Source: an uncultured Chloroflexus sp.
Lineage (GTDB): Bacteria; Chloroflexota; Chloroflexia; Chloroflexales; Chloroflexaceae
DNA length: 64,000 nt
Assembly: GCF_937129525.1 (NCBI RefSeq)
Contig: NZ_CAKZNK010000094.1
Span: 1 to 64,000 of the forward strand
Direction: 5' to 3'
Position 1 is the stretch's first letter. Every line of letters begins with the position of its first letter. The notes under the pieces were generated by a model. It was not told the DNA's origin, did no database searches, and saw only the letters and a list, made by a program, of their open reading frames with translations. Positions 18,683 to 44,620 of this stretch are shown here, in pieces. The position numbers and the translations under genes were made by a program.

Positions 18683-21600
18683 TCACGGCTGTCCTCCGCC
18701 AAGCCTGTTTATCATTCGCTGCGCTTCATCAGCCCACGGCCCATCGGGCGCCAGTTGCAGATACCGTTGCAAGGCGTCTCTGGCCAGAGTGGTTTGATTA
18801 CGCAGCATAAAGAGACGGGCCAGTTGAAAGTAGGGGTCAGGCAAAGCTGGATCGGTGCTCATCGCCTGCCCCAATGCAAGCTCGGCTTTATCGAGCCAAC
18901 CCCAATCGATCAATGCAGTCGCCAGTTTGTTGTAATTACCTGCGGTTGGACTGGCCTGAATTGCGCCCAGATAAGCCTGTTCGGCTTCATCATACCTGCC
19001 CGCTTCAGCCAAAATATCGCCCCAGAGATGATGCAAGCCAACGTCGCCGGGATTGGCAGCAGCGGCAGGAGCTAACACCTGCGCCGCTTCATAAAGCCGT
19101 CCCTGACGGCGGTAACCTTCCGCCAGAGCAAAGGCAAATTGAGCATTGGTCGGTTGTGCCGCAACGGCAGCTTCCAGCTCAGAGAGATCAATGGTCGGTT
19201 CGTTGGGTGGCGGTGGAAGAGGCGGCTGCGCAACCGGTAACGGATCGGCGCGCAACAGACGATAGCTGTCCGGCAGATTGGCAACCGCGTAGATTGCTAC
19301 GCCGTCTTGTTCATAAACCGGACGCAAATAACGGTCGCGCAAGACCATCAATTTCTCAAGGCCCTGTGGGTAAAAAGCGCGCTCGACACCGCCAACATAG
19401 ACATAATCAACATCATAGCGGGCCAGAATGCGTAATGCCGTTTCCGGGTCGGTGGTGGTGTAAAAGGCTTCGACATCACGCACTCGCCGCCCCGTCACTA
19501 TCGGATCACGCTGTTCATCGGCATGCAACGCGCTGATCACTGTCGGCAAACCGGTTGCCGCAGCGATGCGAATGCCGTAGGCCCGATAGAACCACAGGCT
19601 CGACTGAAGTACAATCGGCGTGCCGTCGATCTGCTGATTGAGCCAGCGGATCGCCGCTGCGTCACCGCTCAAATCTACCTGTACCATCGTGGTATTCGGC
19701 TCACAGCCACCAAAGGCAGCGCAGTCATAAGTAAAGCTGGCCTGTTCCATGAAAGCCATTCCATCGAGGGTTGGGCCAATATCAACCGGGAAGCGCGTGA
19801 CCAGCCGCGATGGAATGGCTACCGGCGCATAGCTGGCTGCTATCAGCGCCGGCATAGCGATTGCGACCAGGGCTACTCTGACCGCTGCTTGCCCGCCCCA
19901 CTGGCGCGCCTGATGGAACAATCGCGGCAAAAGACCGGCAGCGGCCAGGCCGAGTAATGTCCAAACGTGCATGCCAAATTTAAAGACGGTGTTCATGCGA
20001 TACCAGTCGCTACCGTCGAGATGGTCGCGAATGTAGACCACTTCCACGCCGAGCGAAATAGCCCACGCCAGCCAGCTTAGCAATAGCGCATACCATGCCG
20101 GCGCGCCGGTGGCTCGTCGCACCAATAAGGTGGTGGTGAGGATTAACAAGATCAGCAAACCCAGTCGCAACGCCCAGGCCGGCAACGCCGCGCCAATAAT
20201 GATCGTTATTCCGATCACGCTTAACATCAGTGTCCCTAAACGTACCGGCACGAGGCGCTGCCAGCGCCGCGCTGCCGCGCCGATGATAACCGGGACAACG
20301 ATAACGAGCGGCAAACCGTACACCAGCAGATAATCGAACGGTAAAGTGACGTGACTGGTCACCAACCCAATCCCACCTACCATCGGCCAGTAGCGGTCGA
20401 AGAAGGGGGCAAAGAGCAAGAGCGAGCCTATTCCCAATCCAATCGCTTTGACCGCCGCCAGCGCAATTGCCTGCCAGCGCCAGCCATCACGCCGCGCGGC
20501 GCCGGCGACAATTGACAAACCGGCAAGCAAACCGTAGGTGGGGAAATCCCACGAATTGGTGACTGCCAGCGTCCCCAGAGTCAACGCCATGAGCGCCCAG
20601 GTTGGCGCAACGCGGAGCAGAGAAGACTCCGCTGAGGAGTTCCCAACCGGGGTTGTTAGCCGACCGGCTTGCTGTCGATTGAGCAGAATCAATTGCCATG
20701 CGCAGGCAATTGCCAGCAGCGAGAGCGGGAGCGCAATCAGGTGTGGATGCAGGTCAGCGTAAAGGAAACTGAACAGCGGAAACTCATTAATCGTGTAGGG
20801 GATCACCCGACTCGGCCCGACAAACCAGTCGCCGAGCAGCGCGGCATTGCCACTCAACAGCAAGCGCAACCCGTTGGCGCCTTGCGACCAACCCGCTGCG
20901 ATCAGGCTGGTCAGATTGCCAACCAGTCCGATCAGCGCAGCAGCCAGTATCCCGTAGCGTCGTCGGCCAGCCAGTCGCGCGCCCAGCTCATACGCGCCGG
21001 CCAACAACATACCGAAGAGTGTCGCCAGGGCCAGATTGAAACCGATCGCCGAATCAAGACCGAGAAGCTTGATCGGCAGCGACATGAGATAGAGACCGTA
21101 GTAGTAATAGTTGATGTAGCCGTTACTGTAGAAAGGATCATAGGGCGGCATCACCGGACTGCGCAAAATGGCGTTGAGGAAGCCCTGCTCCATCGGCTTT
21201 TCGCCACCCCATACCGGGTGCCACAGATCGGGGTTGAGCGCGCGGATGCAAACCATCGCGGCAAAGCCGGCCAGGAAGACAACTTCACCTGGGATAACAG
21301 TGCGCCACGCAGCGCGATCGGGCCGCGCACCGATCAGCCATAACGCCAGCGCAATGACCGCCATCACCACCAGACCAACTGTCACCCCTACCTGATCGTA
21401 GCGCCAGAGACCGAGACTGACAGGCAACCAGATTGCGTAACCGAGCATGATCAGGCCAACCGGTCGCGCCCATGCCAGCCCCCATCGCCCCAACGCAGCA
21501 TAAGCCGGCAGCGCACCCAGCCCGGCAATCAGATACCAGACCAGCAGCCACACGATGACCGCCAGCCACTGCTGTTCGCCAAGCAGAGTATTCCAGCCTA

Positions 21601-24600
21601 ACCGACCAACTGCCGGCAGTTCGTTCACCGGCTGCATCAATTCCAGTGCCGGAATAGTACGCGCGCTCGGTGGTCGAATCGGCAGATCGCTGGTGAGCAT
21701 ACGGGGCTGACCCGGCTCGCGCACACGGTAGAGAACACTCTCACCCTGCCGGAAAACAAGGTCAAGATCCCCGCGACCGACAAGCGTCGCGAATTTGGCT
21801 AATCCTTCCGCGCTGTAAAGCTGTCGCTCCACGCCGCCGACATACACATATTCCACACCGTAACGGCGCAGAGCTGACAGCGCGGTATCGGGATCGGGCG
21901 TATTGTAGATGGTGGCGATGATCTGCTGCCGATAACCGATCACCGGCCCGGCCTGCACTGCGCTGCGCTGCTGGATCTGATGCCACTCCCAACCGAGCAA
22001 GGTGGGCATGCCGGTAAAGGTGGCAATCCGTCCGGCCCACTGGTACGAAGGCTGGTGCGCTTCGAGAATGATCGGGGTGCCACGCGCATTGCGGCGCAAC
22101 CAGTCAATTGCCGCCGCGTCTTCATCGAGCGAATAGGCCGCGCCGTTACGCGCTGCGGTGATGTTGGTGAAGAACGCCATGCCGTCAAGCGAGCGGGGCG
22201 CAGTCGGATCCCAGCGGTCGGCAATCCGGGCCGGCGTGGCAGTGATGGGGTAGACCAATCCGGCAGCCAGCAGCCCGCCGACAACCAGGCGAACAATCCA
22301 GCGGCCCTGGACAGCCAATCGTTGCGTCGCCATCCATAACCACGGCAAAACGACTGCCGTTGCCAGCGCCAGCAGCATCCAGGCATGCAGGCCGAATTTG
22401 AAGACGGTATTCATCCGCCCGACATCGCCACGCACCACCACCACTTCAACCAGAACCCACAAGCCCAACCCGCCGAAGGCAAACAGAGAAGTGATGAGAG
22501 TGGTTGCTGCATGATGCCGAATCTGCCAGATGATCCACGCCGCCACTGCGATCAGGGCCAGCAACGGGATAAGAGCCGGCAGATCGAGGGCCCATCCGAC
22601 CAGCAGGATTGCAACCGGCCCGATCACGAGCAACAGATTATATCCGCGCCGCCACAGCCAAACCCCGATCACGGCCAGCCAAACTGCCAGCCAGTGACCG
22701 CCGATTTGCAGCAGTTGACCGGTTGAGGTACGTTCAGCCGTGATAACGGTCTCAAGCAAGGTCAAACCCTGCCCACTCCAGAGTTCGATCCCACTTGACT
22801 CGGTCACAAAACTGGCAATGAAGGGAGCAAAGAGCAGATTACCCAGCAGCGCCGGCGCGGCTCCGACAGATGCAGCAACCAGCGCCGTCGCCGGCCAACC
22901 ATGCCCCGCTCGCCGCCAGCGCCGCCCCGTCGCCAGGGCCAGCATCAACCCGGCCAGACCCACAAACACCGGGTAATCCCAGGTGTTCGTAGCCCTGATC
23001 GCGCCCGCAACCACTCCCAATCCAGCCACGATCCACCACTGTCCTGATGCTCCCTGACGCCACCAGGCCAGCGCCAGACCCAGCGCAGCCAGACTGAGCG
23101 GCATGACTATCATGTGCGCATGCAAATCGGCAAACAGGAAGGTAAAGAAGGGGAATTCATTGATTGTGCCGGGAGCGATACGAGTTGCATCCCAGAAAGC
23201 CCACTCGTAGCGCCCTTTGGCTACCTGTTCAGCGGCATAGCCGCTGACGAACCAGCCGGCTTGGGCGAGATTGCCGATCAGCAGCATTAAGACCGGCGCC
23301 AGTATACCGGAGAGCAGCGCTACCCGTTCGCGCCGACGGAGCGCCGAGTGCGCAGCTAACAGGTTGTAGACGACTCCGAATGCCCCTAGCGCTGTGAGAG
23401 CGAAGATCGTGGCAACGCCAAGATTGTAACCAACCGCCGGCGCGACCCCGCTAAGATGGATCAGCGTTCCTACCAGCACAAACCCGAAATAGTAGTAGTT
23501 GATGTAACCACCGGCATGCCAGGGATCGAGCGGCGGGAAGGCCGCGCTACGCAGAACTGCATTGAGGTACGCGAAATCCATCGGCTTCTCGCCACCGCGC
23601 GCCGGATGCCAGAGATCAGGGTTGAACCAGCGGAGAGTCAGACCGAAGAGCAAAAACCCGATAAAGAGGATTTCAGCGACGAGTAACGCCGTTTGTCGCT
23701 CTTGCCAGAGTTGGCGCAATGCATCGCGATTGCGCCAGCCAGCCACTACTCCTATCCCCAGCACGATGAACCCAATCGTCCAGAGAGTGACCGGGGCAAA
23801 TGGCGCAAGCCGCAGGCTTCCGGCCAGCCAGGCCAGATACGCCACCAGCAGCAACGCCAGAATCCTGGTCAGCGAGAAGCCGTAGTCAGGCAAACGGCGC
23901 AGGCGCGGCCCGATGACGGCAAAGACGGCCAGCCCCAGCGCTTCAATCCAGAGCACCCACAACAGCGGCGAAAAAGGATTCGTTCCTAACCACGCCCACC
24001 ACTCTCCACCCGCAGCGTACTGCGGCCAGACACTCTCGGTCAAGCGGAGCGCAGTCGGATTACGGTCAGCAATTCGCACCGGCGACTTGTAGACTTCACC
24101 CCACTCAACATCGCCGGTGATGAGTTGTTCCGCCCGTTCCCGGCTGTACAACGGCGTCTTGCGAAAGATTAACACTCGTGGATGGTCGTAGACGCTAAAT
24201 GCCTCTTCAGCCATCCAGTCAGGAATGCGGATGCCGAGGATGGTAGGGTATGAGGTAATCTCTGCCGCTAGCTCGAAGCCCAATTCGCCGGTAAACAGGC
24301 TGTGGTAGTAACGCATCAATGCCGGATAGCGCATGCGCAGACGCGATGTGCTATCGTAGACGCGGTTGCTGGTCAGAGTGATATAATCCGCTCGATCGAG
24401 CTGGTCGAGCAGACCAGATTCACCGTTACTACCAAAATACTTAGCCGGCTCATCTTCGGCGTAGGGCGATGAATCGATCCCAAAGAAGGTGACATTCCAG
24501 GCTGCCGTTGACGTTGCCTGCAACGGCAGCGGATCATCCCAGCGTTCGGAAATGATATAGCTACCCGGCGGCGCATGCTCGGCCAGCCATTGCGCTGCCT

Positions 24601-26263
24601 GCACCCGCGAGTGGGGCACGGTGTAGATGCGCGAGAAGGCGTATGCCCAGAGCGCGGTCGCAATCAGCGTCACCGGCAGCGCCAGGCGAACAATCCACGA
24701 CAGCGTTTTGAGTACGCTTGTCCGATACCTTGATTGTCGTGCCGGCGCTGTCTCGTCTGACCATAGTTGACTGCGGCGCATACTGTTGTGGACGTACCAT
24801 CGGCGTCCCCACCGGGCCGATACCATCAACCCCCACGCTGCCAGAACGATCAGCGCGCCGTAGATCGGCAGCAGATAACGCATCGTAATGGCAAATTGAT
24901 TGCCCTGCCATGCAAAATAGAAGGCGATCCAGATCCAAAGCACCCAGGCCGGATGCCATGGCCTTCCTGCCAGCGGTGATGGGCGCAGCGCCCACTGCCA
25001 GCCGCGCCGCACATAGCGGGCCGCAAAGAGCAGCCAGCTCCCCCAGGCAGCCAGACCAAGCAGCGGCCCCATTCCCCACAGCACCATATTCATCCAGGGA
25101 AAGAGATAGGCTGGCCGGCCCACCCATTGTTGGCTGGGGGGAAAGTCGTACTCACCCGTCACCAATGCCTGCACAGTGATCAGGTTTTCGCGAAAGCGAG
25201 GATCGAGACGGACATCGAAGAAACCGGCTCCGTGCAGTGACGATGGGCCATCAATGAAGGGAGAGTCGGCGCCTGAGCCGATGAACGAGTCGGGCGCAAT
25301 GGCGCGGAAAGTCAGCAGCGTGACAATGCCGGCCATCACTAACAGCCAGATCTCACGCCGCATCAGGCGGTCGAACACAGCCAACCACGATTGGCCACGC
25401 AACGCCCGCTGCGCCGCAATGAGAGCAGCAGCAATCGCCAAACCGCCGATGGTCGCCATCGTGATCCGGTTAGCCATTGCCAGGCCGATGCTCACCCCCA
25501 GCGCCAGGTACACACCCACGCTGCCACCCTGCGCGGCCCGCACCGTCCAGTAGAGCGCCAGCAAACAGAAGAAGGTAGAGAAGGCCGGATCAACAAAGAA
25601 ATGGCTCTGCTGGATGTGCATGACGGTGAGAGCGGCCAGCAACGCGGCGAGCAACCCCACTCGACGACCAAACAGGCGTCGCCCGATCAGATAGACGAGG
25701 GCGACACTGCCGAGATCGAAGATCACCGCCAGGCTCCGACCGACGTTCACGATTTCGCCATAACTGGTCAGATTGACGCGGTCGGGATTCAACCACTGTA
25801 TCAGCGGATCGAACCGTGGCCAGTTTCGTTCGGGATTAGCCGTCGGCGCGCCATAATCGGTTCGTCGTTCGGCAGGCGCTGACGGATCGGCGCCAATGCG
25901 CGGCGGCCCGGCAATGGTCGGCACTTGCGCCGGCAAAGCTTCGGCTGGAGTGAGCATGACCGCTACCGCGCGCGTCATCATGATCGGCAGTGGCCCGTAG
26001 ACATAGAGGGGGAACTGCTCGTAATTACGTGGATTGAGCGGCGAGCGACTCGAGTCATAAAACTCGCTCAGGCTCTGCGGCATGCGAACAGTTGAAGCGA
26101 CATACGTAAAGAAGCGTTCGTCGGGATGCTGGCCGGTGCCTGAGTCCCAATCAAAGAGGTTCAGCGCGCGGAAGTAGAGCGCAAGCAGTAAAATAGCTGC
26201 CAGCCCTAGGCGGGCAACCCATGCGCGGTATCGGATGAAAGCCTGTCGCACGGCGATTTCCAC
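18683..26263 (-). CDS. giant fusion: GT-C (GT39-like) + two DUF2298/YYY domains + TPR tail
   Basis: 2526 residues in one uninterrupted frame. Residues 1 to about 760 look like a PMT/GT39-type GT-C glycosyltransferase: a first transmembrane helix, then the acidic loop DWDSGTGQHPDERFF near 38-52, many further helices, and a soluble part with VQAAQWLAEHAPPGSYI. YYY copy 1 (about 770-1520) has GYINYYYFGF near 917, INEFPFFTFLFADLHAHM, MNTVFKFGLHAWMLL near 1283 and YVYVGGVERQLY near 1474. YYY copy 2 (about 1550-2340) repeats these at about 1714, 2089 and 2288. Residues 2357-2526 are TPR repeats. The start is GTG 26263 with no clear ribosome site, so it is uncertain by a few codons. Probably envelope glycan or lipid-sugar assembly (inference). 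Confidence 0.88.
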   Translation of the reverse strand: MEIAVRQAFIRYRAWVARLGLAAILLLALYFRALNLFDWDSGTGQHPDERFFTYVASTVRMPQSLSEFYDSSRSPLNPRNYEQFPLYVYGPLPIMMTRAVAVMLTPAEALPAQVPTIAGPPRIGADPSAPAERRTDYGAPTANPERNWPRFDPLIQWLNPDRVNLTSYGEIVNVGRSLAVIFDLGSVALVYLIGRRLFGRRVGLLAALLAALTVMHIQQSHFFVDPAFSTFFCLLALYWTVRAAQGGSVGVYLALGVSIGLAMANRITMATIGGLAIAAALIAAQRALRGQSWLAVFDRLMRREIWLLVMAGIVTLLTFRAIAPDSFIGSGADSPFIDGPSSLHGAGFFDVRLDPRFRENLITVQALVTGEYDFPPSQQWVGRPAYLFPWMNMVLWGMGPLLGLAAWGSWLLFAARYVRRGWQWALRPSPLAGRPWHPAWVLWIWIAFYFAWQGNQFAITMRYLLPIYGALIVLAAWGLMVSARWGRRWYVHNSMRRSQLWSDETAPARQSRYRTSVLKTLSWIVRLALPVTLIATALWAYAFSRIYTVPHSRVQAAQWLAEHAPPGSYIISERWDDPLPLQATSTAAWNVTFFGIDSSPYAEDEPAKYFGSNGESGLLDQLDRADYITLTSNRVYDSTSRLRMRYPALMRYYHSLFTGELGFELAAEITSYPTILGIRIPDWMAEEAFSVYDHPRVLIFRKTPLYSRERAEQLITGDVEWGEVYKSPVRIADRNPTALRLTESVWPQYAAGGEWWAWLGTNPFSPLLWVLWIEALGLAVFAVIGPRLRRLPDYGFSLTRILALLLVAYLAWLAGSLRLAPFAPVTLWTIGFIVLGIGVVAGWRNRDALRQLWQERQTALLVAEILFIGFLLFGLTLRWFNPDLWHPARGGEKPMDFAYLNAVLRSAAFPPLDPWHAGGYINYYYFGFVLVGTLIHLSGVAPAVGYNLGVATIFALTALGAFGVVYNLLAAHSALRRRERVALLSGILAPVLMLLIGNLAQAGWFVSGYAAEQVAKGRYEWAFWDATRIAPGTINEFPFFTFLFADLHAHMIVMPLSLAALGLALAWWRQGASGQWWIVAGLGVVAGAIRATNTWDYPVFVGLAGLMLALATGRRWRRAGHGWPATALVAASVGAAPALLGNLLFAPFIASFVTESSGIELWSGQGLTLLETVITAERTSTGQLLQIGGHWLAVWLAVIGVWLWRRGYNLLLVIGPVAILLVGWALDLPALIPLLALIAVAAWIIWQIRHHAATTLITSLFAFGGLGLWVLVEVVVVRGDVGRMNTVFKFGLHAWMLLALATAVVLPWLWMATQRLAVQGRWIVRLVVGGLLAAGLVYPITATPARIADRWDPTAPRSLDGMAFFTNITAARNGAAYSLDEDAAAIDWLRRNARGTPIILEAHQPSYQWAGRIATFTGMPTLLGWEWHQIQQRSAVQAGPVIGYRQQIIATIYNTPDPDTALSALRRYGVEYVYVGGVERQLYSAEGLAKFATLVGRGDLDLVFRQGESVLYRVREPGQPRMLTSDLPIRPPSARTIPALELMQPVNELPAVGRLGWNTLLGEQQWLAVIVWLLVWYLIAGLGALPAYAALGRWGLAWARPVGLIMLGYAIWLPVSLGLWRYDQVGVTVGLVVMAVIALALWLIGARPDRAAWRTVIPGEVVFLAGFAAMVCIRALNPDLWHPVWGGEKPMEQGFLNAILRSPVMPPYDPFYSNGYINYYYYGLYLMSLPIKLLGLDSAIGFNLALATLFGMLLAGAYELGARLAGRRRYGILAAALIGLVGNLTSLIAAGWSQGANGLRLLLSGNAALLGDWFVGPSRVIPYTINEFPLFSFLYADLHPHLIALPLSLLAIACAWQLILLNRQQAGRLTTPVGNSSAESSLLRVAPTWALMALTLGTLAVTNSWDFPTYGLLAGLSIVAGAARRDGWRWQAIALAAVKAIGLGIGSLLLFAPFFDRYWPMVGGIGLVTSHVTLPFDYLLVYGLPLVIVVPVIIGAAARRWQRLVPVRLGTLMLSVIGITIIIGAALPAWALRLGLLILLILTTTLLVRRATGAPAWYALLLSWLAWAISLGVEVVYIRDHLDGSDWYRMNTVFKFGMHVWTLLGLAAAGLLPRLFHQARQWGGQAAVRVALVAIAMPALIAASYAPVAIPSRLVTRFPVDIGPTLDGMAFMEQASFTYDCAAFGGCEPNTTMVQVDLSGDAAAIRWLNQQIDGTPIVLQSSLWFYRAYGIRIAAATGLPTVISALHADEQRDPIVTGRRVRDVEAFYTTTDPETALRILARYDVDYVYVGGVERAFYPQGLEKLMVLRDRYLRPVYEQDGVAIYAVANLPDSYRLLRADPLPVAQPPLPPPPNEPTIDLSELEAAVAAQPTNAQFAFALAEGYRRQGRLYEAAQVLAPAAAANPGDVGLHHLWGDILAEAGRYDEAEQAYLGAIQASPTAGNYNKLATALIDWGWLDKAELALGQAMSTDPALPDPYFQLARLFMLRNQTTLARDALQRYLQLAPDGPWADEAQRMINRLGGGQP

Positions 26264-36507: not shown

Positions 36508-36536
36508 TTGACGGGCAACAACAGTTGTGGTACTAT
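36508..36536 (+). promoter_or_regulatory. sigma-70-type promoter of the cobalamin operon
   Basis: TTGACG (36508-36513), a 17-bp spacer and TACTAT (36531-36536) form a near-consensus promoter. It predicts transcription from about 36543, directly ahead of the cobalamin riboswitch, so the leader RNA would contain the whole aptamer. Confidence 0.7.
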
Positions 36537-36580
36537 CGCCCCAATTGAATATATGCAACTGCGGGGTTGTTACCCCGCCG

Positions 36581-36694
36581 GTAGGGAGCCCGGAGGAAGC
36601 GAAGGGCTTAATTGGGGGAAGTCCGGTCAAAGGCCGGCGCAGTCCACGCTACTGTAGGTCGCTTGCAGCGACGAGCCAGAATGCCCGTCCCTAC
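36581..36694 (+). promoter_or_regulatory. cobalamin riboswitch aptamer
   Basis: The conserved B12 aptamer core is readable in order. TTAATTGGGGGAAGTCCGGT (36609-36628) matches the GGGAA...CCGGTG box, and GGCCGG...GCAGTCCACGCTACTGTAGG (from about 36632) matches the GCnGnCCCGCnACUGU box. A GTCGC/GCGAC stem follows, then GACGAGCCAGAATGCCCG (about 36670-36687), matching the GAAGCCAGnAgACCnGCC box. The terminal helix pairs 36581-36587 with 36688-36694. A GC hairpin (36561-36578) precedes it. Such aptamers bind adenosyl- or other cobalamins and shut off uptake and synthesis genes. The genes downstream (CobS, alpha-ribazole phosphatase, EcfT) are classic targets. Confidence 0.93.
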
Positions 36695-36722
36695 ATGTTC
36701 GCTGTCACACCCGCGTTGGTAA

Positions 36723-36800
36723 GGGGGTGAGGCGCGCGCAAGATTGGCTTGCATGCCTGCCTTATTCGATTCACCCTCCACCCGTGGTGGAGGGATTTTT
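36723..36800 (+). terminator. riboswitch expression platform: intrinsic terminator with possible antiterminator
   Basis: A 9-bp stem (36774-36782 with 36786-36794, loop of 3) followed by ATTTTTG is a canonical intrinsic terminator, 65 bp before the first gene's ATG. The upstream segment 36723-36730 can pair with 36771-36778 (7 of 8), overlapping the terminator's 5' arm, so it could be the antiterminator. In turn 36708-36712 can pair with 36725-36729 and release the terminator. The terminator is seen directly; the switching scheme is inferred. Confidence 0.75.
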
Positions 36801-36864
36801 GTTGCCTGTCGTGGATAAACGTCAATGCCGATCAGTCGGTTGGTTGAACGAAAGGTGTGAAATC

Positions 36865-37923
36865 ATGCGTCGGATTCTGGCCCTATTCCTTGCCGTGACC
36901 CTGAGTATCGTCGTCTGGCAACCGGCACTCGCGCAGAGTAGCCTGGTTGAATCGGCACTGAAGTGGGTTGCCGGCCAGCAGCAGGCCGATGGGAGTTTTG
37001 CCGGTTTTGGCCCTGGCGATACCGCGGACGCTATTGTTGCCTTTGTCGCCGGTGGGCAGCAACCGCCGGCCAGCGCTGTGGCTTATCTGGCCGGACAGGC
37101 CCCTACCTACGGCACTTCATCGGCTGGCGCTACGGCCAAACTCATTCTTGCCGCCGTGGCCGCCGGACGCGACCCGCTCAACTTTGGCGGCGTCAATCTC
37201 GCCCAACAGCTCGGCTCAACCTATACTCCGACTACCGGCCAGTATGGCGCTGATGTCTACGGCCACGCGCTGGCGCTGCTGGCGATCAAGGCGATGGGCG
37301 CGCAACCGCCGGCAGCGGCGATTGATCGCCTGATTGCGCTGCAATTGCGCGACGGCGGGTGGAGTTTTGACGGCGCAGCCGCAACGGGTAGCGATACCAA
37401 TACCACGGCTCTGGCTGTGATGGCGCTCCGTGGCTATGCCCGCGCCGGTGATGCGTTAACTGCGGCGCGCGCCTACTTGCGTGGTCAGCAAAACCCTGAC
37501 GGCGGCTTCCCATACTCGCAAACGTCGGCTTTTGGCAACGCCAGCGATGCCAATTCAACCGCAGCCGTGACGCAGGCAATCATCGCGTTAGGTGAAGACC
37601 CGAATAGCGCAGCGTGGAAGCAGGGGGACGCAACACCCCTGAGCGCCCTGGCAGCCTTTCAGAATAGCAGTGGCGCGTTCCGCTATCAGAATGCGATGCC
37701 CGATGACAATGCCCTGGCCACGTATCAGGCGATTCCGGCCCTGGCCGGTCGCGCATTACCGGTAGCAACAACCTCTATCCCAGCGGCGCAGACCCTGATT
37801 GCGCCGGCAACCAGCCTGCCGCGCACTGCTGGCGAAACACTGCTCTATCTGCCGGTGATGGCATTCATCGGGTTCCTGTTGATCGGGTTGGGCCTGACTC
37901 TGCGCCGCGCGCGTCTAGTGTAA
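36865..37923 (+). CDS. exported alpha/alpha-barrel protein, transcobalamin/intrinsic-factor N-domain-like
   Basis: 352 residues from ATG 36865 (AAAGG upstream). Signal peptide at 1-24 (MRRILALFLAVTLSIVVWQPALAQ). Residues 30-305 are squalene-cyclase/prenyltransferase-type helical repeats: LKWVAGQQQADGSF, DGGWSFDGAAATGSDTNTTA, LRGQQNPDGGFPYSQ, ANSTAAVTQAIIALGEDP, and DNALATYQAIPALAGRALP. This last resembles the closing segment of the barrel in intrinsic factor and transcobalamin. No cyclase DxDD catalytic motif is visible. The C-terminus has LPRTAGE, a hydrophobic helix and RRARLV, an LPxTG-like surface-sorting layout. It is the first gene after the riboswitch and lies 25 bp before a DUF4430 protein. 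I infer cobalamin or corrinoid capture at the cell surface. Confidence 0.82.
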   Translation: MRRILALFLAVTLSIVVWQPALAQSSLVESALKWVAGQQQADGSFAGFGPGDTADAIVAFVAGGQQPPASAVAYLAGQAPTYGTSSAGATAKLILAAVAAGRDPLNFGGVNLAQQLGSTYTPTTGQYGADVYGHALALLAIKAMGAQPPAAAIDRLIALQLRDGGWSFDGAAATGSDTNTTALAVMALRGYARAGDALTAARAYLRGQQNPDGGFPYSQTSAFGNASDANSTAAVTQAIIALGEDPNSAAWKQGDATPLSALAAFQNSSGAFRYQNAMPDDNALATYQAIPALAGRALPVATTSIPAAQTLIAPATSLPRTAGETLLYLPVMAFIGFLLIGLGLTLRRARLV

Positions 37924-37948
37924 TTGCAATCGCGTTAGCAGAGCAACG

Positions 37949-38809
37949 ATGAAACTGATTCGTCAGCTCATCATCTTGAGCGCTATTGTCCTGCTCTCCG
38001 GCGTGGCGATCGCCCAACCGGCGGTCAACCGCGCCGGGGTCGTCGCGCGCTTCGGCAACGGTGACGTTGTTACCGCTTGCGTTGAGTTTAGCGAACCATC
38101 GATCAGCGGATTGGAACTGCTCGAACGCAGTGGGCTGCCGGTTATCAGTCAGCGGAGTAGCATCGGCGCGGCAGTGTGTAAAATCGGCAACGAGGGCTGC
38201 GACTATCCTGCTACCAGTTGCTTCTGTGCCCGCGAGCAGGGTCGGGTCGTGTATTGGGCATTCTATGTACGTGAAGGCGGAACATGGCGCTATTCCAATC
38301 TCGGCGCGAGTAACGTGTCGGTCAGCGATGGCGATCTGCACGGCTGGGCATGGGGGCCGGGTGATGCCAGCGGCGGCGCCATGCCACCAGAAGTAGAATT
38401 GGCCGATGTTTGCCGGCAAGCGGCGGTTATCCCACCAGCGGCGGCGACGACCGCTCCGGCAACGAACGCCGCACCCACGGCCACCATTCCACCCGCGGCG
38501 ACCATCGCTCACACGGCAACCGCCATACCAACAGCCACCAACACGCCTCCAATGACTGCCGCGCCGTCACTGATTGCCTCTCTTGAGCCGTCTGCTACCC
38601 TGGCGTCGGCAACCGCAACATTATCGCCTGTCGCAACTGCTTCCGCTACGGCAGCAGTGACTTTTAGCCCAACCTTCACACCCACTGCGACGATCACATC
38701 GGTTACACCGGTAACAGCCGACGGCAACGCCGGACAGTGGCTTGGGTTTGTGGCGCTGGCGGCATTGCTCATCGGCGGCATTGCAGTGACTCTCAGGCGG
38801 CGGCAATGA
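37949..38809 (+). CDS. exported DUF4430-like protein, transcobalamin C-domain-like, membrane anchored
   Basis: 286 residues. Signal peptide at 1-22 (ending SGVAIAQ). Residues 25 to about 155 form a beta-rich domain resembling DUF4430, the transcobalamin-like C-terminal domain: VTACVEFSEPSISGLELLERSGL, a Cys-rich stretch (CKIGNEGCDYPATSCFC), then VYWAFYVREGGTWRYSNLGASNVSVSDGDLHGWAWG. A long Thr/Ala/Pro-rich linker (about 160-258) and a C-terminal helix with RRRQ anchor it to the membrane. In animal B12 carriers the alpha/alpha barrel and this beta domain sandwich cobalamin. Here they are separate adjacent genes, so a complex of the two products is expected (inference). The Cys cluster may form disulfides outside the cell. 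Confidence 0.82.
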   Translation: MKLIRQLIILSAIVLLSGVAIAQPAVNRAGVVARFGNGDVVTACVEFSEPSISGLELLERSGLPVISQRSSIGAAVCKIGNEGCDYPATSCFCAREQGRVVYWAFYVREGGTWRYSNLGASNVSVSDGDLHGWAWGPGDASGGAMPPEVELADVCRQAAVIPPAAATTAPATNAAPTATIPPAATIAHTATAIPTATNTPPMTAAPSLIASLEPSATLASATATLSPVATASATAAVTFSPTFTPTATITSVTPVTADGNAGQWLGFVALAALLIGGIAVTLRRRQ

Positions 38810-38884
38810 AGATGACGTGACATGAACGGCTGCCCTGGGCAATGTTCCCGCAGCCATCGCCGGCACCGGCAGGAGAACAATCCT

Positions 38885-39490
38885 ATGCGCACCAGCATCT
38901 GGCTCGTCCGTCACGGTCAGACCGCAGCTAATCGCAGCCGCCGTTACCTGGGCCGCGGCGATAGCCCCTTGACCGACTACGGTCAGCGCCAGCACGCTGC
39001 CGTCGCCCAACGTCTCCGTTCGTTGCCCTTTACCCACGCCATTGTCAGCCCAACCCGACGCACCCGCGCGCTGGCCAACCTGCTGGTAGAACAACGCAAC
39101 TTTCAGCTTACAGAAGATCCGCGCTGGCTGGAAATCGATCATGGCCGATGGGAAGGATTGACCTATCGCGAAGTCGTGCAGCGCTTTCCAGACGATGCCA
39201 GAGCGCGCTGGGCAAACGGCGTCGATGGTCGCGCTACCGACGGTGAAAGCCTGGCAGAAGCGGCGGCGCGCGTCTATGCAGCATGGGCAGAGCTGTTGAC
39301 CAACAACCGCGGCGGGAGAGTGCTGATTGTCACCCATGCTACCCCGATCCAACTGGCACTCTGCTTTTGCTGCAACATGCCGATTGCCGAACACTGGCGC
39401 TGGCGGATCGATCTGGGTAGTATCACTGCGCTTGATGTCTATGGCTCGTCGATCATCATCCGTATGGTTAACCATGTCCCCCGCCTGTGA
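38885..39490 (+). CDS. cobC: alpha-ribazole-5'-phosphate phosphatase (histidine phosphatase family)
   Basis: 201 residues from ATG 38885 (AGGAG upstream; an in-frame ATG at 38822 is rejected because homology starts later). Histidine phosphatase signature LVRHGQTAANRSRRYLGRGDSPLTDYGQRQ at 8-37, with catalytic His in RHG. ISPTRRTRALANLLV supplies the second Arg, EIDHGRWEGLTYREV the acid, and VTHATPIQLALC the last His. The general fold is shared with phosphoglycerate mutases. CobC is chosen because it sits 89 bp before cobS in a cobalamin-riboswitch operon, where it would dephosphorylate alpha-ribazole phosphate. Confidence 0.88.
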   Translation: MRTSIWLVRHGQTAANRSRRYLGRGDSPLTDYGQRQHAAVAQRLRSLPFTHAIVSPTRRTRALANLLVEQRNFQLTEDPRWLEIDHGRWEGLTYREVVQRFPDDARARWANGVDGRATDGESLAEAAARVYAAWAELLTNNRGGRVLIVTHATPIQLALCFCCNMPIAEHWRWRIDLGSITALDVYGSSIIIRMVNHVPRL

Positions 39491-39579
39491 AGGAGTGCTG
39501 CCCGGACATAACCAGGCGCCAGTCACAGCCTGCCACATGCAACCTGCCATCGGCACGCCATACCGAAGAAAGGAACGAT

Positions 39580-40335
39580 ATGAGTGATTCATCGACGCGC
39601 CCCATCAATGGTTTGATCGAGGCGATCCGCTTTCTCACCATTCTCCCGCTGCCCGGCCTGCCGGCTATGAGTGAACAGAGTGTGGCGCGAGCCATTCCCT
39701 GGTTTCCAGCCGCCGGCCTGGTCATCGGCGGCGCGCTAGTAATGGTTGATACGCTGAGTCGACCGTTGTGGGGAGATCTGACGGCGGCAGTGCTAGTGGT
39801 GGCAACGTGGGGCATCATCACCGGTGGTCTCCACCTTGATGGCCTCAGCGATACATTTGATGCCGTCATGAGCTGGCGCTCACGCGAACGCAAACTTGAG
39901 ATTATGAAAGACAGTCGGATTGGCGCTATGGGAGCTATCGCCTTGATCGTTCTGATCTTGCTCAAAGTAGCGCTCATTGCCGGGGCGACGGTTGCATGGC
40001 CGGCGCTGTTATTAGCGCCGATGCTGGGGCGCTGGGCCGATTGCTATGGCATTTACCGCTTCCCACCTGCCCGTGAGGGCGGCCTGGGCCGCACCTTTAA
40101 TGCACAGGTTCGCCAGCGCGACCTGTTGATGGCTTCACTGTTGATGATCGGTAGCGCCTGGTTCATCGCCGGCTTCACCGGAATCATCGCCAGTGCGCTG
40201 GTACTGGTCGTTGCCCACCTGCTCGCGCGCTGGTGGGTGCGCGATCTCGGCGGCCTGACCGGCGATACCTACGGTGCGCTGTGCGAAATCGGCGAAGTCG
40301 TTGCGCTGGCTGCGCTGACGATCCGGCTGGCGTAG
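39580..40335 (+). CDS. cobS: adenosylcobinamide-GDP ribazoletransferase (cobalamin synthase)
   Basis: 251 residues from ATG 39580, with AAAGGA 6 nt upstream. Typical CobS sequence: EAIRFLTILPLPG near the N-terminus, then GGLHLDGLSDTFDAVMSWRSRERKLEIMKDSRIGAMGAIAL, which holds the metal- and substrate-binding acidic residues, and LGRWADCYGIYRFPPAREGGLG. It has several membrane helices, as in the family. It joins adenosylcobinamide-GDP to alpha-ribazole, the last step of nucleotide-loop assembly, at the cytoplasmic membrane. CobU/CobY and CobT are not in this window. Confidence 0.95.
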   Translation: MSDSSTRPINGLIEAIRFLTILPLPGLPAMSEQSVARAIPWFPAAGLVIGGALVMVDTLSRPLWGDLTAAVLVVATWGIITGGLHLDGLSDTFDAVMSWRSRERKLEIMKDSRIGAMGAIALIVLILLKVALIAGATVAWPALLLAPMLGRWADCYGIYRFPPAREGGLGRTFNAQVRQRDLLMASLLMIGSAWFIAGFTGIIASALVLVVAHLLARWWVRDLGGLTGDTYGALCEIGEVVALAALTIRLA

Positions 40336-40500
40336 CGCGATGGTTGCGACTGGCGATTGAAGTTGCTTCCACGTCATAGGAGTGGGTAGAATGACCCCCT
40401 TAGCCTGACAGTCATCCACCTGGATACCGATCATTCCCGGTCAAACGCGAGCGTTACCGGTATCGTTTCAGATTTATCTCGACCATCTCGAGGCACATCA

Positions 40501-41625
40501 ATGCACACGCGCACATGGCTCTACTGGCTGGTCGCGGCCACAACAATGACAATACTCGCTCCCCACCCGCTCTACCACGTGTTGACCATGCTGGTGGTGA
40601 CATACGTCTTCGTTGCTCACCGCGATGATCGACCGTTAGCGCGCAGCTTCTCGCTCTTTGCCCGCGCAGGCGCAATCATCTGGGTGGGTTACATCATCTT
40701 CGCGATAGTGACCGTTGGCGGGCCACGCGGCGCAACGGCCTTGATCACATTACCGGCCTTTCAGTTGCCGGTCTGGCTGGGGGGAATTGTATTGGGCGGA
40801 CCGATCACTGTCGAGGCGCTGGCATGGGGAGCGACCCGTGGGTTAGGACTATGGACACTCCTCTTGATCTTTGGCGCATTTAATGCCCTCGTCGATCACC
40901 ACCGGCTCTTGCGCCTGACTCCCCGCTCGCTCTTTCACGCCGGCCTGGCCGTAACCATTGCCATCGCCTTTGCGCCGGGTCTGGTGCGAACAATCCAGGA
41001 CATTACTGCCACCCAACGCGCCCGCGGCCACCGATTCGGCGGCATCCGCAGTTGGTGGGCGCTGCTGGGGCCATTGCTGGCAGGGAGCCTTGAACGCGCG
41101 CTGCAACTGGCGGAAGCCCTCGAAGCGCGAGGCTATGGTCACACCCTTGTCTCACCATCCCCTGGCCGTACTCTGGCATTGATCATGGGTCTCAGCAGTC
41201 TCGCCGCTGCACTGATCGGCTGGCTATGGGCCGGCCCATCTACGTTGCCGGTTATGGGTGTCCTGGGCACATTCGGTCTCCTCCTCACCAGTTGGGCAGC
41301 CCGTCAGTTGAGTCAGAGCGTGCCTCGCACCACGTATCGGCGCGAACGCTGGCATCGCCACGATACCATTGTCTGCATCGTTCTCAGTGGCGCTCTGGCA
41401 ATAATCGCCCTCGCGCGTCTGCTTGAGCCAGCCAGTCTCGTCTACTATCCCTTCCCGGTTATCAGCGCACCCACATTTGATCTCCACATCGGCGCGGCAA
41501 TTGCTGCGCTGGCAATACCCGCCCTGCCGTTCCGCAAACCACTACCGCGTCGCGCCCGACGCATCATCGCTGACCGCCGCGCCGAACGTCGCCGAACAGA
41601 GCAGCAGGGTGCGTTTGCTGATTAG
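40501..41625 (+). CDS. ecfT: ECF transporter transmembrane (T) component
   Basis: 374 residues, with about six hydrophobic helices between residues 1 and 260. The two coupling-helix motifs of EcfT appear as TQRARGHRFGG (near 172-182) and ALEARGYGHT (near 207-216), each with the Ala-Arg-Gly signature that contacts the ATPases. The C-terminus is longer and basic (RRARRIIADRRAERRRTEQQ). EcfT links a vitamin- or metal-specific S component to EcfA ATPases. No ecfA or S-component gene is adjacent, so they must be elsewhere. Being last in the riboswitch-led gene run suggests it serves cobalamin or a precursor (or cobalt). The 165-bp gap before it leaves room for a separate promoter. Confidence 0.85.
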   Translation: MHTRTWLYWLVAATTMTILAPHPLYHVLTMLVVTYVFVAHRDDRPLARSFSLFARAGAIIWVGYIIFAIVTVGGPRGATALITLPAFQLPVWLGGIVLGGPITVEALAWGATRGLGLWTLLLIFGAFNALVDHHRLLRLTPRSLFHAGLAVTIAIAFAPGLVRTIQDITATQRARGHRFGGIRSWWALLGPLLAGSLERALQLAEALEARGYGHTLVSPSPGRTLALIMGLSSLAAALIGWLWAGPSTLPVMGVLGTFGLLLTSWAARQLSQSVPRTTYRRERWHRHDTIVCIVLSGALAIIALARLLEPASLVYYPFPVISAPTFDLHIGAAIAALAIPALPFRKPLPRRARRIIADRRAERRRTEQQGAFAD

Positions 41626-41836: not shown

Positions 41837-41865
41837 TTGTTTTGCATCTATCGGCATGCTACACT
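41837..41865 (+). promoter_or_regulatory. putative promoter of the cation ATPase
   Basis: TTGTTT (41837-41842), a 17-bp spacer and TACACT (41860-41865) lie about 50 bp upstream of ATG 41918. Both elements are imperfect, but the spacing is right. Nothing else was recognised in the gap 41626-41917. Confidence 0.4.
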
Positions 41866-41917
41866 CAAAGTAAACTGTCGCTCTCGCCCTGCAATCTCTA
41901 ACCAGGGAGTCTGTATT

Positions 41918-44620
41918 ATGGCCATTTCAACCCCCATGCGCACCGAACCACGATCGCGCTGGCATACTTATGAACTCGCTGAAGTCTACACCAGACTGAA
42001 CAGCTCTCCCGATGGCTTAACCTCGACCGAAGCAGCAAACCGCCTTGCTCAATATGGACCAAACGAGCTGCAAGCGGCGGCCCGCATCTCACCGTGGGCA
42101 ATCCTCCTCGCTCAGTTCCAGAACGTATTGATCATCATCCTGCTCATCGCTACCGGCCTCTCCCTCTTCCTCGGTCACGGCATCGAGTCGATTGCCATCA
42201 TCGTCATCGTACTCTTCGCCGTTCTGCTCGGGTTTGTGCAGGAATACCGCGCCGAACGAGCAATCGAAGCGCTGCGCCGGCTAGCCGCGCCCAACGCCAC
42301 CGTCCTGCGCGATAACAGTGAGCAAGCCGTGCCGGCCCGCGAGCTGGTTCCCGGTGATATTGTGCTACTACGCGCCGGTGATCGAATTCCAGCCGACCTG
42401 CGTTTGATCGAGGCAGTCAACCTGCAAATCGAAGAGGCTGCCCTTACCGGTGAGTCGCTGCCGGTTGAAAAGTCAGCCGACGCGATCATTCCACCTGAAG
42501 CTCCGGTCGCCGAACGCAAGAACATGGTCTATGCCGGCACCTCAGTCAGCTACGGTCGCGGACGCGGGATTGTGGTTGCCACCGGCATGCAGACCGAATT
42601 CGGCGCCATTGCCAGTATGTTGCAAACGATTGAGACCGGTCGCACGCCGCTGCAAGACAACCTCGACCGGGTTGGTCATACGCTGGCGCGCGCGGCGCTG
42701 ATTATTGTCGCCGTAATCACCTTACTCGGTTTCTGGCGTGGCCAGCCGCTGGTCGAGATGATCATCTTTGGCATCGCACTCGCTGTGGCCGTAGTGCCGG
42801 AAGCCTTGCCCGCCGTCGTCACCATCTCGCTGGCTATCGGCGTGCAGCGCATGGTCAAACGCAATGCGCTGATGCGACGCCTGCCGGCAGTCGAAACGCT
42901 TGGCAGCACGTCGGTCATCTGCACTGACAAGACCGGTACCCTGACGAAAGATGAGATGACTGCGCGCCGCTTATTCGTTGCCGATGAATGGTGGGAAATT
43001 ACTGGTTCGGGCTACGCGCCCGTCGGCGAGTTTCGCCGCAACGATCAACCAGAGCAACCTGATGCTGCCGTCCAACACCTCTTGCGCGGCGCGGCGCTGG
43101 CCAGCGATGCCCGCGTCACCTTCCGCGACGAGCGCTGGCAGGCGCAGGGAGATCCAACTGAAGCGGCATTGGTAGTAGCGGCAGCCAAAGCCGGCCTCAT
43201 GGTTGATGAACTGGTGGCCCAGACCCCGCGGGTGGCTGAAATCCCTTTCTCGTCCGAAACGAAACGCATGATCACGCTTCACAACGAACGCGGCGTCACC
43301 GTTGCATATGCCAAAGGGGCGCCGGAGGTGATCGTGCCGGCGTGCAGTCACTGGTTGACGCCGACCGGCCCCGCCCCGTTCACCCCATCAGACCAGGCCA
43401 GAGTGCTTAACGCCGCGCAAACCATGGCCGGCGCTGCCCTGCGGGTTCTGGCAATCGCCACCAAAGCCCCGGCTACGTTGAATGACGCCGAACACGATCT
43501 CACGCTACTTGGCCTGGTGGGCATGATCGACCCACCTCGCCCTGAAGCCAAAACGGCCATCCAGACCTGCCAGCAAGCCGGTATTCGGGTCGTCATGATT
43601 ACGGGCGATCACCCATTGACTGCAACTGCAATTGCCCGTGAATTGGGCTTGCTCACCCATGGCCGGGTCATGACCGGCGTCGAACTCGATGCGCTCAACG
43701 ATGACGACTTTGCCCGCATCGTGGAAACGGTCGATGTCTATGCCCGCGTTGCGCCGGCCCATAAGCTGCGGGTGGTGACGGCGTTGCAACAGAAGGGCTA
43801 TGTGGTGGCGATGACCGGCGACGGCGTTAACGATGCGCCGGCACTCAAGAAGGCCGACATCGGCATTGCCATGGGCATCACCGGCACCGATGTGACCAAA
43901 GAGGCGGCGGCGATGACTATCACCGATGACAACTTCGCTTCAATCGTCGCCGCCGTCGAAGAGGGACGACGCATTTTCGGCAACATCAAGAAGTACCTGA
44001 TGTACCTGCTCTCATCGAATATCGGTGAGATCACCCTGATGGCTGGCGCAACCCTGGCCGGTCTGCCACTGCCGCTCACTGCCGTCCAGATCCTGTACGT
44101 CAATCTGGCCACAGACGGCTTACCGGCGCTGGCGCTGGCCGTCGATCCACCCGATGATGACCTGATGCGCCAGCCACCCCGCGATCCGCGACGCGGCATC
44201 TTTACCCGTCCGGTGGTCGGCCTTATGCTGATCGGCGGATTGTGGTCGGCCCTTGTCAACCTCTCGCTCTTTGTTTGGGCATTGCAGAGTGGACGCGGCA
44301 TGATCGAGGCGATGACCATGACCTTTGTTTCACTGGTACTGATCCAGTTTTTCAAAGCCTACAATTTCCGCTCCGACCACCTATCAGTTTTCCATCGACC
44401 GTTTGCCAACCGCTGGCTCAATCTCGCCATCGTCTGGGAACTGCTCTTGCTCGCCGGAGTGGTCTACTTACCCTTCCTGCATGAACCGTTCGGCACCTTC
44501 CCGCTCACGATCAACGACTGGCTGATCGTGGCGCTGGTTGCGTTAACGATTGTGCCGGTACTGGAAATTGCCAAGTGGATCTTGCGTCAGGAACGACAGG
44601 CAAGCGTCAGAACAGCGTGA
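41918..44620 (+). CDS. P2-type cation-transporting ATPase (Ca2+ type likely)
   Basis: 900 residues from ATG 41918 (AGGGAG upstream). An N-terminal cation-ATPase segment (WHTYELAEVYTRLNSSPDGLTSTEAANRLAQYGPNEL) leads to the actuator TGES near 176. PEALPAVVTISLAIGVQRM in M4 has the PEALP form of P2-type pumps. The phosphorylated Asp is in CTDKTGTLTKDEMTARR near 336. KGAPEV and ITGDHPLTA mark the nucleotide and hinge regions, and MTGDGVNDAPALKKADIGIAMG near 630 is the P-domain signature. Six C-terminal helices follow. The sequence fits SERCA/PMR1-like Ca2+ or Ca2+/Mn2+ export, but the ion is inferred. It is monocistronic and bounded by a strong terminator. Confidence 0.92.
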   Translation: MAISTPMRTEPRSRWHTYELAEVYTRLNSSPDGLTSTEAANRLAQYGPNELQAAARISPWAILLAQFQNVLIIILLIATGLSLFLGHGIESIAIIVIVLFAVLLGFVQEYRAERAIEALRRLAAPNATVLRDNSEQAVPARELVPGDIVLLRAGDRIPADLRLIEAVNLQIEEAALTGESLPVEKSADAIIPPEAPVAERKNMVYAGTSVSYGRGRGIVVATGMQTEFGAIASMLQTIETGRTPLQDNLDRVGHTLARAALIIVAVITLLGFWRGQPLVEMIIFGIALAVAVVPEALPAVVTISLAIGVQRMVKRNALMRRLPAVETLGSTSVICTDKTGTLTKDEMTARRLFVADEWWEITGSGYAPVGEFRRNDQPEQPDAAVQHLLRGAALASDARVTFRDERWQAQGDPTEAALVVAAAKAGLMVDELVAQTPRVAEIPFSSETKRMITLHNERGVTVAYAKGAPEVIVPACSHWLTPTGPAPFTPSDQARVLNAAQTMAGAALRVLAIATKAPATLNDAEHDLTLLGLVGMIDPPRPEAKTAIQTCQQAGIRVVMITGDHPLTATAIARELGLLTHGRVMTGVELDALNDDDFARIVETVDVYARVAPAHKLRVVTALQQKGYVVAMTGDGVNDAPALKKADIGIAMGITGTDVTKEAAAMTITDDNFASIVAAVEEGRRIFGNIKKYLMYLLSSNIGEITLMAGATLAGLPLPLTAVQILYVNLATDGLPALALAVDPPDDDLMRQPPRDPRRGIFTRPVVGLMLIGGLWSALVNLSLFVWALQSGRGMIEAMTMTFVSLVLIQFFKAYNFRSDHLSVFHRPFANRWLNLAIVWELLLLAGVVYLPFLHEPFGTFPLTINDWLIVALVALTIVPVLEIAKWILRQERQASVRTA

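Follow-up and report, generated by a model that had tools for sequence, protein, structure and literature searches.

Here we describe an operon on the forward strand of a 64,000-nucleotide stretch of DNA from an uncultured Chloroflexus sp. (contig NZ_CAKZNK010000094.1; the whole stretch is referred to below as the window). This operon probably encodes a vitamin B12-repressed, two-chain surface module for corrinoid capture that would work like animal intrinsic factor and feed an energy-coupling factor (ECF) transporter, corrinoid binding being the predicted activity. It spans window positions 36508-41625, with all its elements on the plus strand, and carries a cobalamin riboswitch followed by genes for an alpha6/alpha6-barrel protein, a transcobalamin-beta-like protein (hereafter beta protein), a CobC-like phosphatase, CobS and EcfT. 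Its features are as follows:

36508..36536, plus strand: sigma-70-like promoter candidate (TTGACG-17-TACTAT, with TG before the second hexamer; 9/12 consensus).
36567..36707, plus strand: cobalamin riboswitch aptamer (RF00174; Rfam 38.9 bits, E 2.6e-6, full model 1-189).
36774..36803, plus strand: intrinsic terminator serving as riboswitch expression platform (CCCTCCACC-CGT-GGTGGAGGG, then ATTTTTG; nine-pair hairpin at 36774-36794 plus T run).
36865..37923, plus strand: predicted exported alpha6/alpha6-barrel protein of 352 residues (signal peptide, barrel at about residues 25-303, LPxT-type motif, C-terminal transmembrane segment and Arg tail).
37949..38809, plus strand: predicted exported transcobalamin-beta-like (SLBB/beta-grasp) protein of 286 residues (signal peptide, domain at about residues 25-158, Thr/Pro/Ala linker, C-terminal transmembrane segment and Arg tail).
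38885..39490 (ATG 38885), plus strand: CobC-like histidine phosphatase, probably an alpha-ribazole phosphatase (Pfam His_Phos_1 1.8e-54; TIGR03162 154.7 bits).
39580..40335 (ATG 39580), plus strand: CobS, adenosylcobinamide-GDP ribazoletransferase (Pfam CobS 1.8e-57; TIGR00317 151.2 bits, above the cut-off of 110).
40501..41625, plus strand: EcfT-type transmembrane protein of an ECF transporter (Pfam CbiQ 1e-7).

The open reading frame positions and the gene order agree with those given in a preliminary description of this DNA, and its assignments of CobS and EcfT are upheld by the NCBIfam and Pfam matches listed above. Its alpha-ribazole phosphatase is indeed a CobC-like member of His_Phos_1, but the score falls just under the cut-off of the NCBIfam model for CobC alpha-ribazole phosphatase (162.9 bits for TIGR03162), so that this identity is probable rather than certain. 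An alternative GTG start of the barrel gene at 36727 is possible, but it is ATG 36865 that yields the signal peptide.

The beta protein had been called DUF4430-like. No Pfam domain was found in the window protein, and DUF4430 (PF14478) was absent from 35 homologues and from 61 related genomes. Searching the beta family for DUF4430 with profiles of Pfam, NCBIfam and the PDB likewise brought no useful result, and the match of the window protein to the NCBIfam SCO2322 family (4e-5) lies below the curated cut-off. As the profile searches were unproductive, the DUF4430-type fold was established through structure prediction. The AlphaFold2 model of the beta domain, built with 32 homologues, reached a mean predicted local distance difference test score (pLDDT) of 92.5 and a predicted template modelling score (pTM) of 0.86. 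A Foldseek search of the PDB with this model returned 3u7z first; every further match to rank 18 was a chain of transcobalamin, intrinsic factor or haptocorrin. Using VIA-align, Z scores of 12.4 to 3u7z, 12.1 to haptocorrin and 11.7 to transcobalamin and intrinsic factor were obtained, with all listed entries of the three animal carriers at Z 10.8-12.1 and 1.9-2.1 A over 96-99 residues. The 15 best PDB entries by Z (10.8-12.4) thus consist of 3u7z and the animal carriers, and the next, unrelated entry has a Z of 5.7. The DUF4430-like label is therefore reproduced at the level of the predicted fold, although Pfam DUF4430 itself gives no match. As assigned by DSSP, the model has strands at residues 3-10, 16-23, 41-46, 49-55, 75-85, 88-91 and 106-115 and a helix at 30-36, so that a hairpin directly follows the helix, which is the defining feature of the transcobalamin-like SLBB clade (PMC1796856). 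Six cysteines are invariant in the trimmed beta domain across the 32 homologues. Judged from the model, the beta family is a transcobalamin-type domain family that is invisible to Pfam.

The barrel protein was recognised in sequence searches as a toroid related to squalene-hopene cyclases, and it matches the NCBIfam family SCO2321_fam (E 1.8e-34, below the curated cut-off). The window barrel ends with the segment TYQAIPALAGRALP, for which a likeness to the last barrel segment of the animal carriers had been suggested, and many barrel residues are invariant among 21 homologues. Together with these matches to toroid families, the model of a homologous protein (L161, see below), whose barrel superposes on the alpha chain of intrinsic factor (2pmv_B) with a Z of 20.5, supports the alpha6/alpha6 fold that had been proposed for the window barrel. 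The reported lack of the terpene-cyclase DxDD motif was likewise found to be general: not one of 77 barrel domains contains the motif, and in the barrel profile D-T-N-T stands opposite the D-V-D-D of the cyclases. The Pfam family PF01122 (Cobalamin_bind) gave no match to the window barrel at E <= 1, and matches of 0.13 and 0.19 in two relatives.

Both window proteins appear to be exported and membrane-anchored, as read from their sequences: export, as claimed earlier, is supported by the signal peptides, and anchoring by an LPxT-type C-terminus and/or a terminal transmembrane segment followed by RR. In the barrel protein, the LPxT-type motif precedes the terminal hydrophobic stretch, its positions being invariant in the 21 homologues, which suggests anchoring to the wall or the membrane.

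The cobalamin riboswitch recognised in the preliminary description was recovered as the single one in the Rfam search, above the gathering score of RF00174 (31.5 bits). A strong terminator hairpin sits between the aptamer and the barrel gene; despite base changes, it is conserved in each of the seven Chloroflexus loci compared (the window and six others). This arrangement fits a riboswitch that halts transcription upon B12 binding, the direction of control being taken from the usual behaviour of this riboswitch class. The promoter candidate upstream is suggestive only, because shuffled sequence yields about as many such sites.

The association of these elements is widespread. The beta domain was present in 72 of 301 genomes sampled from the phylum Chloroflexota, and pooling relatives with the phylum samples gave 82 genomes with the domain. 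In 67 of these 82, the beta gene is preceded on its own strand by a cobalamin riboswitch no more than 5 kb away; at two to three riboswitches per genome of about 5 Mb, approximately 0.1 genomes would be expected, which indicates that the arrangement is not due to chance. The barrel adjoins the beta domain or is fused to it in 58 of 80 loci, and EcfT is encoded 3' in 54 of 80. CobC (18/80) and CobS (12/80) are found less often beside the pair, being absent there from most loci of other families. Two comparable loci from other phyla are as follows:

L180:4057-11849, Streptomyces sp. SAT1 plasmid NZ_CP016083.1: riboswitch, beta-barrel-barrel fusion, second beta protein, EcfT, ATPase and S component.
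L097:7716-13322, Lachnospiraceae bacterium MD329: barrel protein bearing SLH domains, DUF4430 protein of canonical type, EcfT and a one-chain EcfAA'-S fusion (two ATPases and S).

No cobalamin riboswitch was found within the L097 stretch; its gene order ties the Chloroflexota beta family to DUF4430. On the Streptomyces plasmid, metE adjoins the operon on the opposite strand.

Natural fusions strengthen the idea of a clamp beyond what had been proposed for the window pair. Barrel-barrel-beta arrangements in a single chain occur in three Chloroflexota genomes (L059, L161 and L165), and the Streptomyces plasmid encodes the reverse order, beta-barrel-barrel, in one chain beside the second beta protein. 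In L161, a short linker joins the second barrel to the beta domain behind it; in the 927-residue fusion L059:7816-10599, about 130 residues of other sequence separate the two. The second barrel and beta domain of L161, itself a natural single chain, were modelled together by AlphaFold, using alignment rows that contain both domains from one stretch, some of which read through stop codons between adjacent genes. The model reached a pLDDT of 91.7 and a pTM of 0.82, with linker residues 279-281 below a pLDDT of 50. Its 15 best Foldseek matches are transcobalamin, haptocorrin and intrinsic factor (E 6.6e-12 to 1.4e-8), over about 420 columns that cover both domains, and cyclases come next at 1e-6.

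Regarding the transporter, the operons of relatives add an S component (Pfam PF12822) together with EcfAA', a double ATPase fused into one chain. The proposed link of the window operon to an ECF transporter is supported in that EcfT is encoded within it and homologues of the missing partners occur in the same genome, but the S component and the ATPase are encoded outside the operon, on other contigs. The S homologue (contig C59) is 46% identical to the operonic one of L055 and 41% to that of Streptomyces, the fused EcfAA' homologue (contig C87) is 60% identical to the operonic one of L043, and the window EcfT shares 42% identity with its counterpart in the L043 operon. EcfT and the dispersed S and EcfAA' proteins would together form an ECF transporter. 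The S component gene (L175:234-1121, contig C59) stands alone and without a cobalamin riboswitch, whereas its homologues in other genera sit in the riboswitch operon.

The possible need for such uptake was evaluated in 40 genomes with the system, with CbiC taken to indicate de novo synthesis of the corrin ring. CbiC was present in 10, Chloroflexus included, and missing from 30 (Herpetosiphon among them), all of which are reported to be at least 90% complete, suggesting that most carriers probably cannot do without uptake, which would be a supplement in Chloroflexus.

Taken together, these results suggest a model in which low intracellular cobalamin would cause the riboswitch to let transcription past the terminator, whereupon both exported proteins would be produced. 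Barrel and beta domain, each tethered outside the membrane or wall, would then jointly bind a corrinoid (cobalamin or an incomplete form, e.g. cobinamide) between the same two folds as in intrinsic factor and transcobalamin. The corrinoid would be passed to the ECF transporter composed of the operon EcfT and the S and fused EcfAA' proteins from elsewhere in the genome, and CobC and CobS of the operon may finish or modify the nucleotide loop of the incoming corrinoid. In this scheme we infer the corrinoid as ligand, the clamping between two chains and the hand-over to the ECF transporter.

Several observations weigh against this model. Superposition of the L161 model on the carriers succeeds domain by domain only, with an overall root-mean-square deviation of about 21 A; each domain fits, their mutual placement does not, and closure of the clamp stays a prediction. 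The interpretation in the preliminary description is thus partly supported: both folds, their adjacency and order, export, the control by a B12 riboswitch, the link to an ECF transporter and the lack of DxDD are upheld, whereas the fusion model departs from the carriers in domain placement. The L161 barrel on its own is nearer to squalene-hopene cyclases (VIA-align Z 24) than to intrinsic factor, and sequence likeness to the animal carriers is marginal at best (haptocorrin E 0.024). The beta gene has no adjacent barrel in 22 of the 80 loci, about a quarter, and no barrel was found anywhere in nine genomes of one family (f25). Moreover, comparing the sequence of the S component with solved ones gave no match, and Chloroflexus, having CbiC, may not need imported B12.

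The barrel-less loci indicate that the barrel is not always needed and that some hosts may manage with the beta domain alone. The alternative that follows most directly, namely that the beta protein alone binds the corrinoid and delivers it to the ECF transporter while the barrel is accessory (a wall spacer, a second site or a partner for some corrinoids), we regard as unlikely, but as the strongest of the competitors. Most of the 22 loci lie in riboswitch/ECF contexts or beside cob genes, and several encode small, lipoprotein-like beta proteins; the f25 genomes and the uncarrier-like domain placement in the fusion model point the same way. On the other hand, the 58 loci mentioned above retain the barrel, either as a neighbour of the beta domain or joined to it, fusions are known in both orders, and the invariance of many barrel residues argues against an accessory part.

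A different ligand is considerably less probable. The presence of CobC-like and CobS genes in the operon could mean that the module captures a non-corrinoid building block of B12 for these enzymes, e.g. alpha-ribazole or its phosphate; ECF transport of alpha-ribazole (CblT) occurs in other bacteria, and an S component unlike the solved ones would be compatible with such a substrate. We consider this improbable, given that CobC and CobS accompany the pair in a minority of loci, that the pair of folds is typical of proteins wrapping a whole corrinoid, and that organisms without CbiC would still require the corrin ring.

More improbable still is the capture of cobalt for B12 synthesis with EcfT acting as CbiQ, to which the Pfam name of the EcfT family (CbiQ) and the fact that cobalamin riboswitches also regulate cobalt transporters could be taken to point. 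A complete CbiM-CbiQ-CbiO cobalt transporter is encoded in the de novo cob cluster of the same genome (contig C23), the window EcfT gave no blastp match to this CbiQ, and the window operon has no CbiM substrate subunit; this separate transporter and the dissimilarity of EcfT to its CbiQ speak against a role in cobalt uptake. In addition, the S components of relatives belong to PF12822 and not to CbiM, and the 30 system genomes lacking CbiC have no evident need of cobalt for corrin synthesis. The idea that the barrel is an active enzyme of terpene cyclase or glycoside hydrolase type, with an unrelated neighbour, deserves least credit of all, for although squalene-hopene cyclases are closest to the barrel by both sequence and structure, the DxDD protonation motif is missing from the family and the protein has a signal peptide, riboswitch control and, in relatives, a fusion to the beta domain.

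Variants of the beta gene context were also observed. Small beta proteins, some of them lipoprotein-like, are encoded directly 3' of a high-scoring cobalamin riboswitch and 5' of EcfT, with no barrel nearby, at L146:8465-8977 and L147:2794-3270 and in L156, L159, L160, L163, L164 and L167. Tandem beta genes follow a single barrel gene at L053:8296-10268, L055:7602-9389 and L133:8149-10125. Beta proteins of 173-200 residues without a transmembrane tail are encoded next to CobC and CobS at L062:5970-6491, L065:8433-9020 and L068:9137-9739, with no riboswitch, barrel or EcfT nearby, and perhaps represent a second, separate use of the domain. A plasmid search with the DNA of the barrel-beta pair gave no match; a Thermomicrobium plasmid match (H1) was rejected, as only query residues 331-498, outside the barrel, were aligned and no system genes surrounded it. 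Elsewhere in the window, a P-type cation ATPase (Pfam E1-E2_ATPase, Cation_ATPase_N/C) is encoded directly 3' of the operon (41837-44620, plus strand), and a 2526-codon open reading frame at 18683-26263 on the minus strand starts with a segment resembling multiple transmembrane helices.

In comparison to known systems, the window pair shares with intrinsic factor, transcobalamin and haptocorrin the same two folds in the same order and the beta-grasp with its hairpin after the helix, at the structural similarity given above; some relatives even carry the two domains on a single chain of comparable length. Unlike in the animal carriers, the two domains of the window pair reside in two chains, each apparently tethered, the beta domain has six conserved cysteines, and the barrel is nearer to cyclases and has no PF01122 match. 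The solved fold closest to the beta domain is that of the Ruminococcus gnavus DUF4430 protein RUMGNA_00854 (3u7z), at 1.8 A over 96 residues; this protein is, however, 18% identical, annotated only as putative metal binding, and belongs to the Pfam family that the window protein does not match. The NCBIfam families SCO2321 and SCO2322 of Streptomyces lack a function name; on the SAT1 plasmid, the same order barrel/beta, EcfT, ATPase and S recurs behind a cobalamin riboswitch, except that the barrel there is part of a beta-barrel-barrel fusion. By analogy, the window module resembles in role the Bacteroides surface lipoproteins BtuG and BtuH, described as capturing B12 ahead of the transporter (PMC6143338), which belong to an outer-membrane TonB system.

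The preliminary description knew of no demonstration of such a clamp; the general proposal had, as a prediction, already been published in 2007 for other bacteria. Burroughs et al. described secreted transcobalamin-like SLBB proteins, often fused to toroids and encoded with CbiO-like and CbiQ-like genes, as proposed B12 scavengers (PMC1796856). Their taxa are low-GC Gram-positives, planctomycetes and some archaea (euryarchaea), and Chloroflexi and riboswitches are not mentioned in the text of that paper. Those systems resemble the window operon in their secreted or anchored SLBB proteins, with or without an alpha/alpha toroid, and in their CbiQ-like and CbiO-like operon genes. Their hosts usually lack key genes of B12 synthesis; among the genomes with the present system, CbiC is missing from 30 of 40 but present in Chloroflexus. 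The window differs in its Chloroflexota host, riboswitch control, split chains, cysteine-rich beta family outside Pfam DUF4430, and the CobC and CobS genes of the operon. The novelty lies in Chloroflexota as host, the connection to a riboswitch, the two-chain form and a beta family missed by Pfam, the general bacterial idea dating from 2007. Among the papers searched, no later experimental study was found, an absence that is weak evidence, and none on SCO2322 or on a B12 uptake system of Chloroflexus.

Overall, riboswitch control and conserved ECF partners turn the 2007 prediction into a clear, testable operon in a setting, bacteria without an outer-membrane TonB system, where little is known of extracellular B12 capture. 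They also provide a function hypothesis for two families named by locus tag only, SCO2321 and SCO2322. The occurrence of two chains, of fusions in either order and of one or two barrels forms a natural series that bears on the origin of the animal carriers and on whether clamping requires a covalent link. Whether Chloroflexota, as also some Actinobacteria, capture B12 by means of a split intrinsic-factor-type surface clamp of tethered chains feeding an ECF transporter, a living split state before or after the animal fusion, is in our judgement evenly balanced; if true, this system would be a bacterial, riboswitch-controlled counterpart of the animal B12 carriers.

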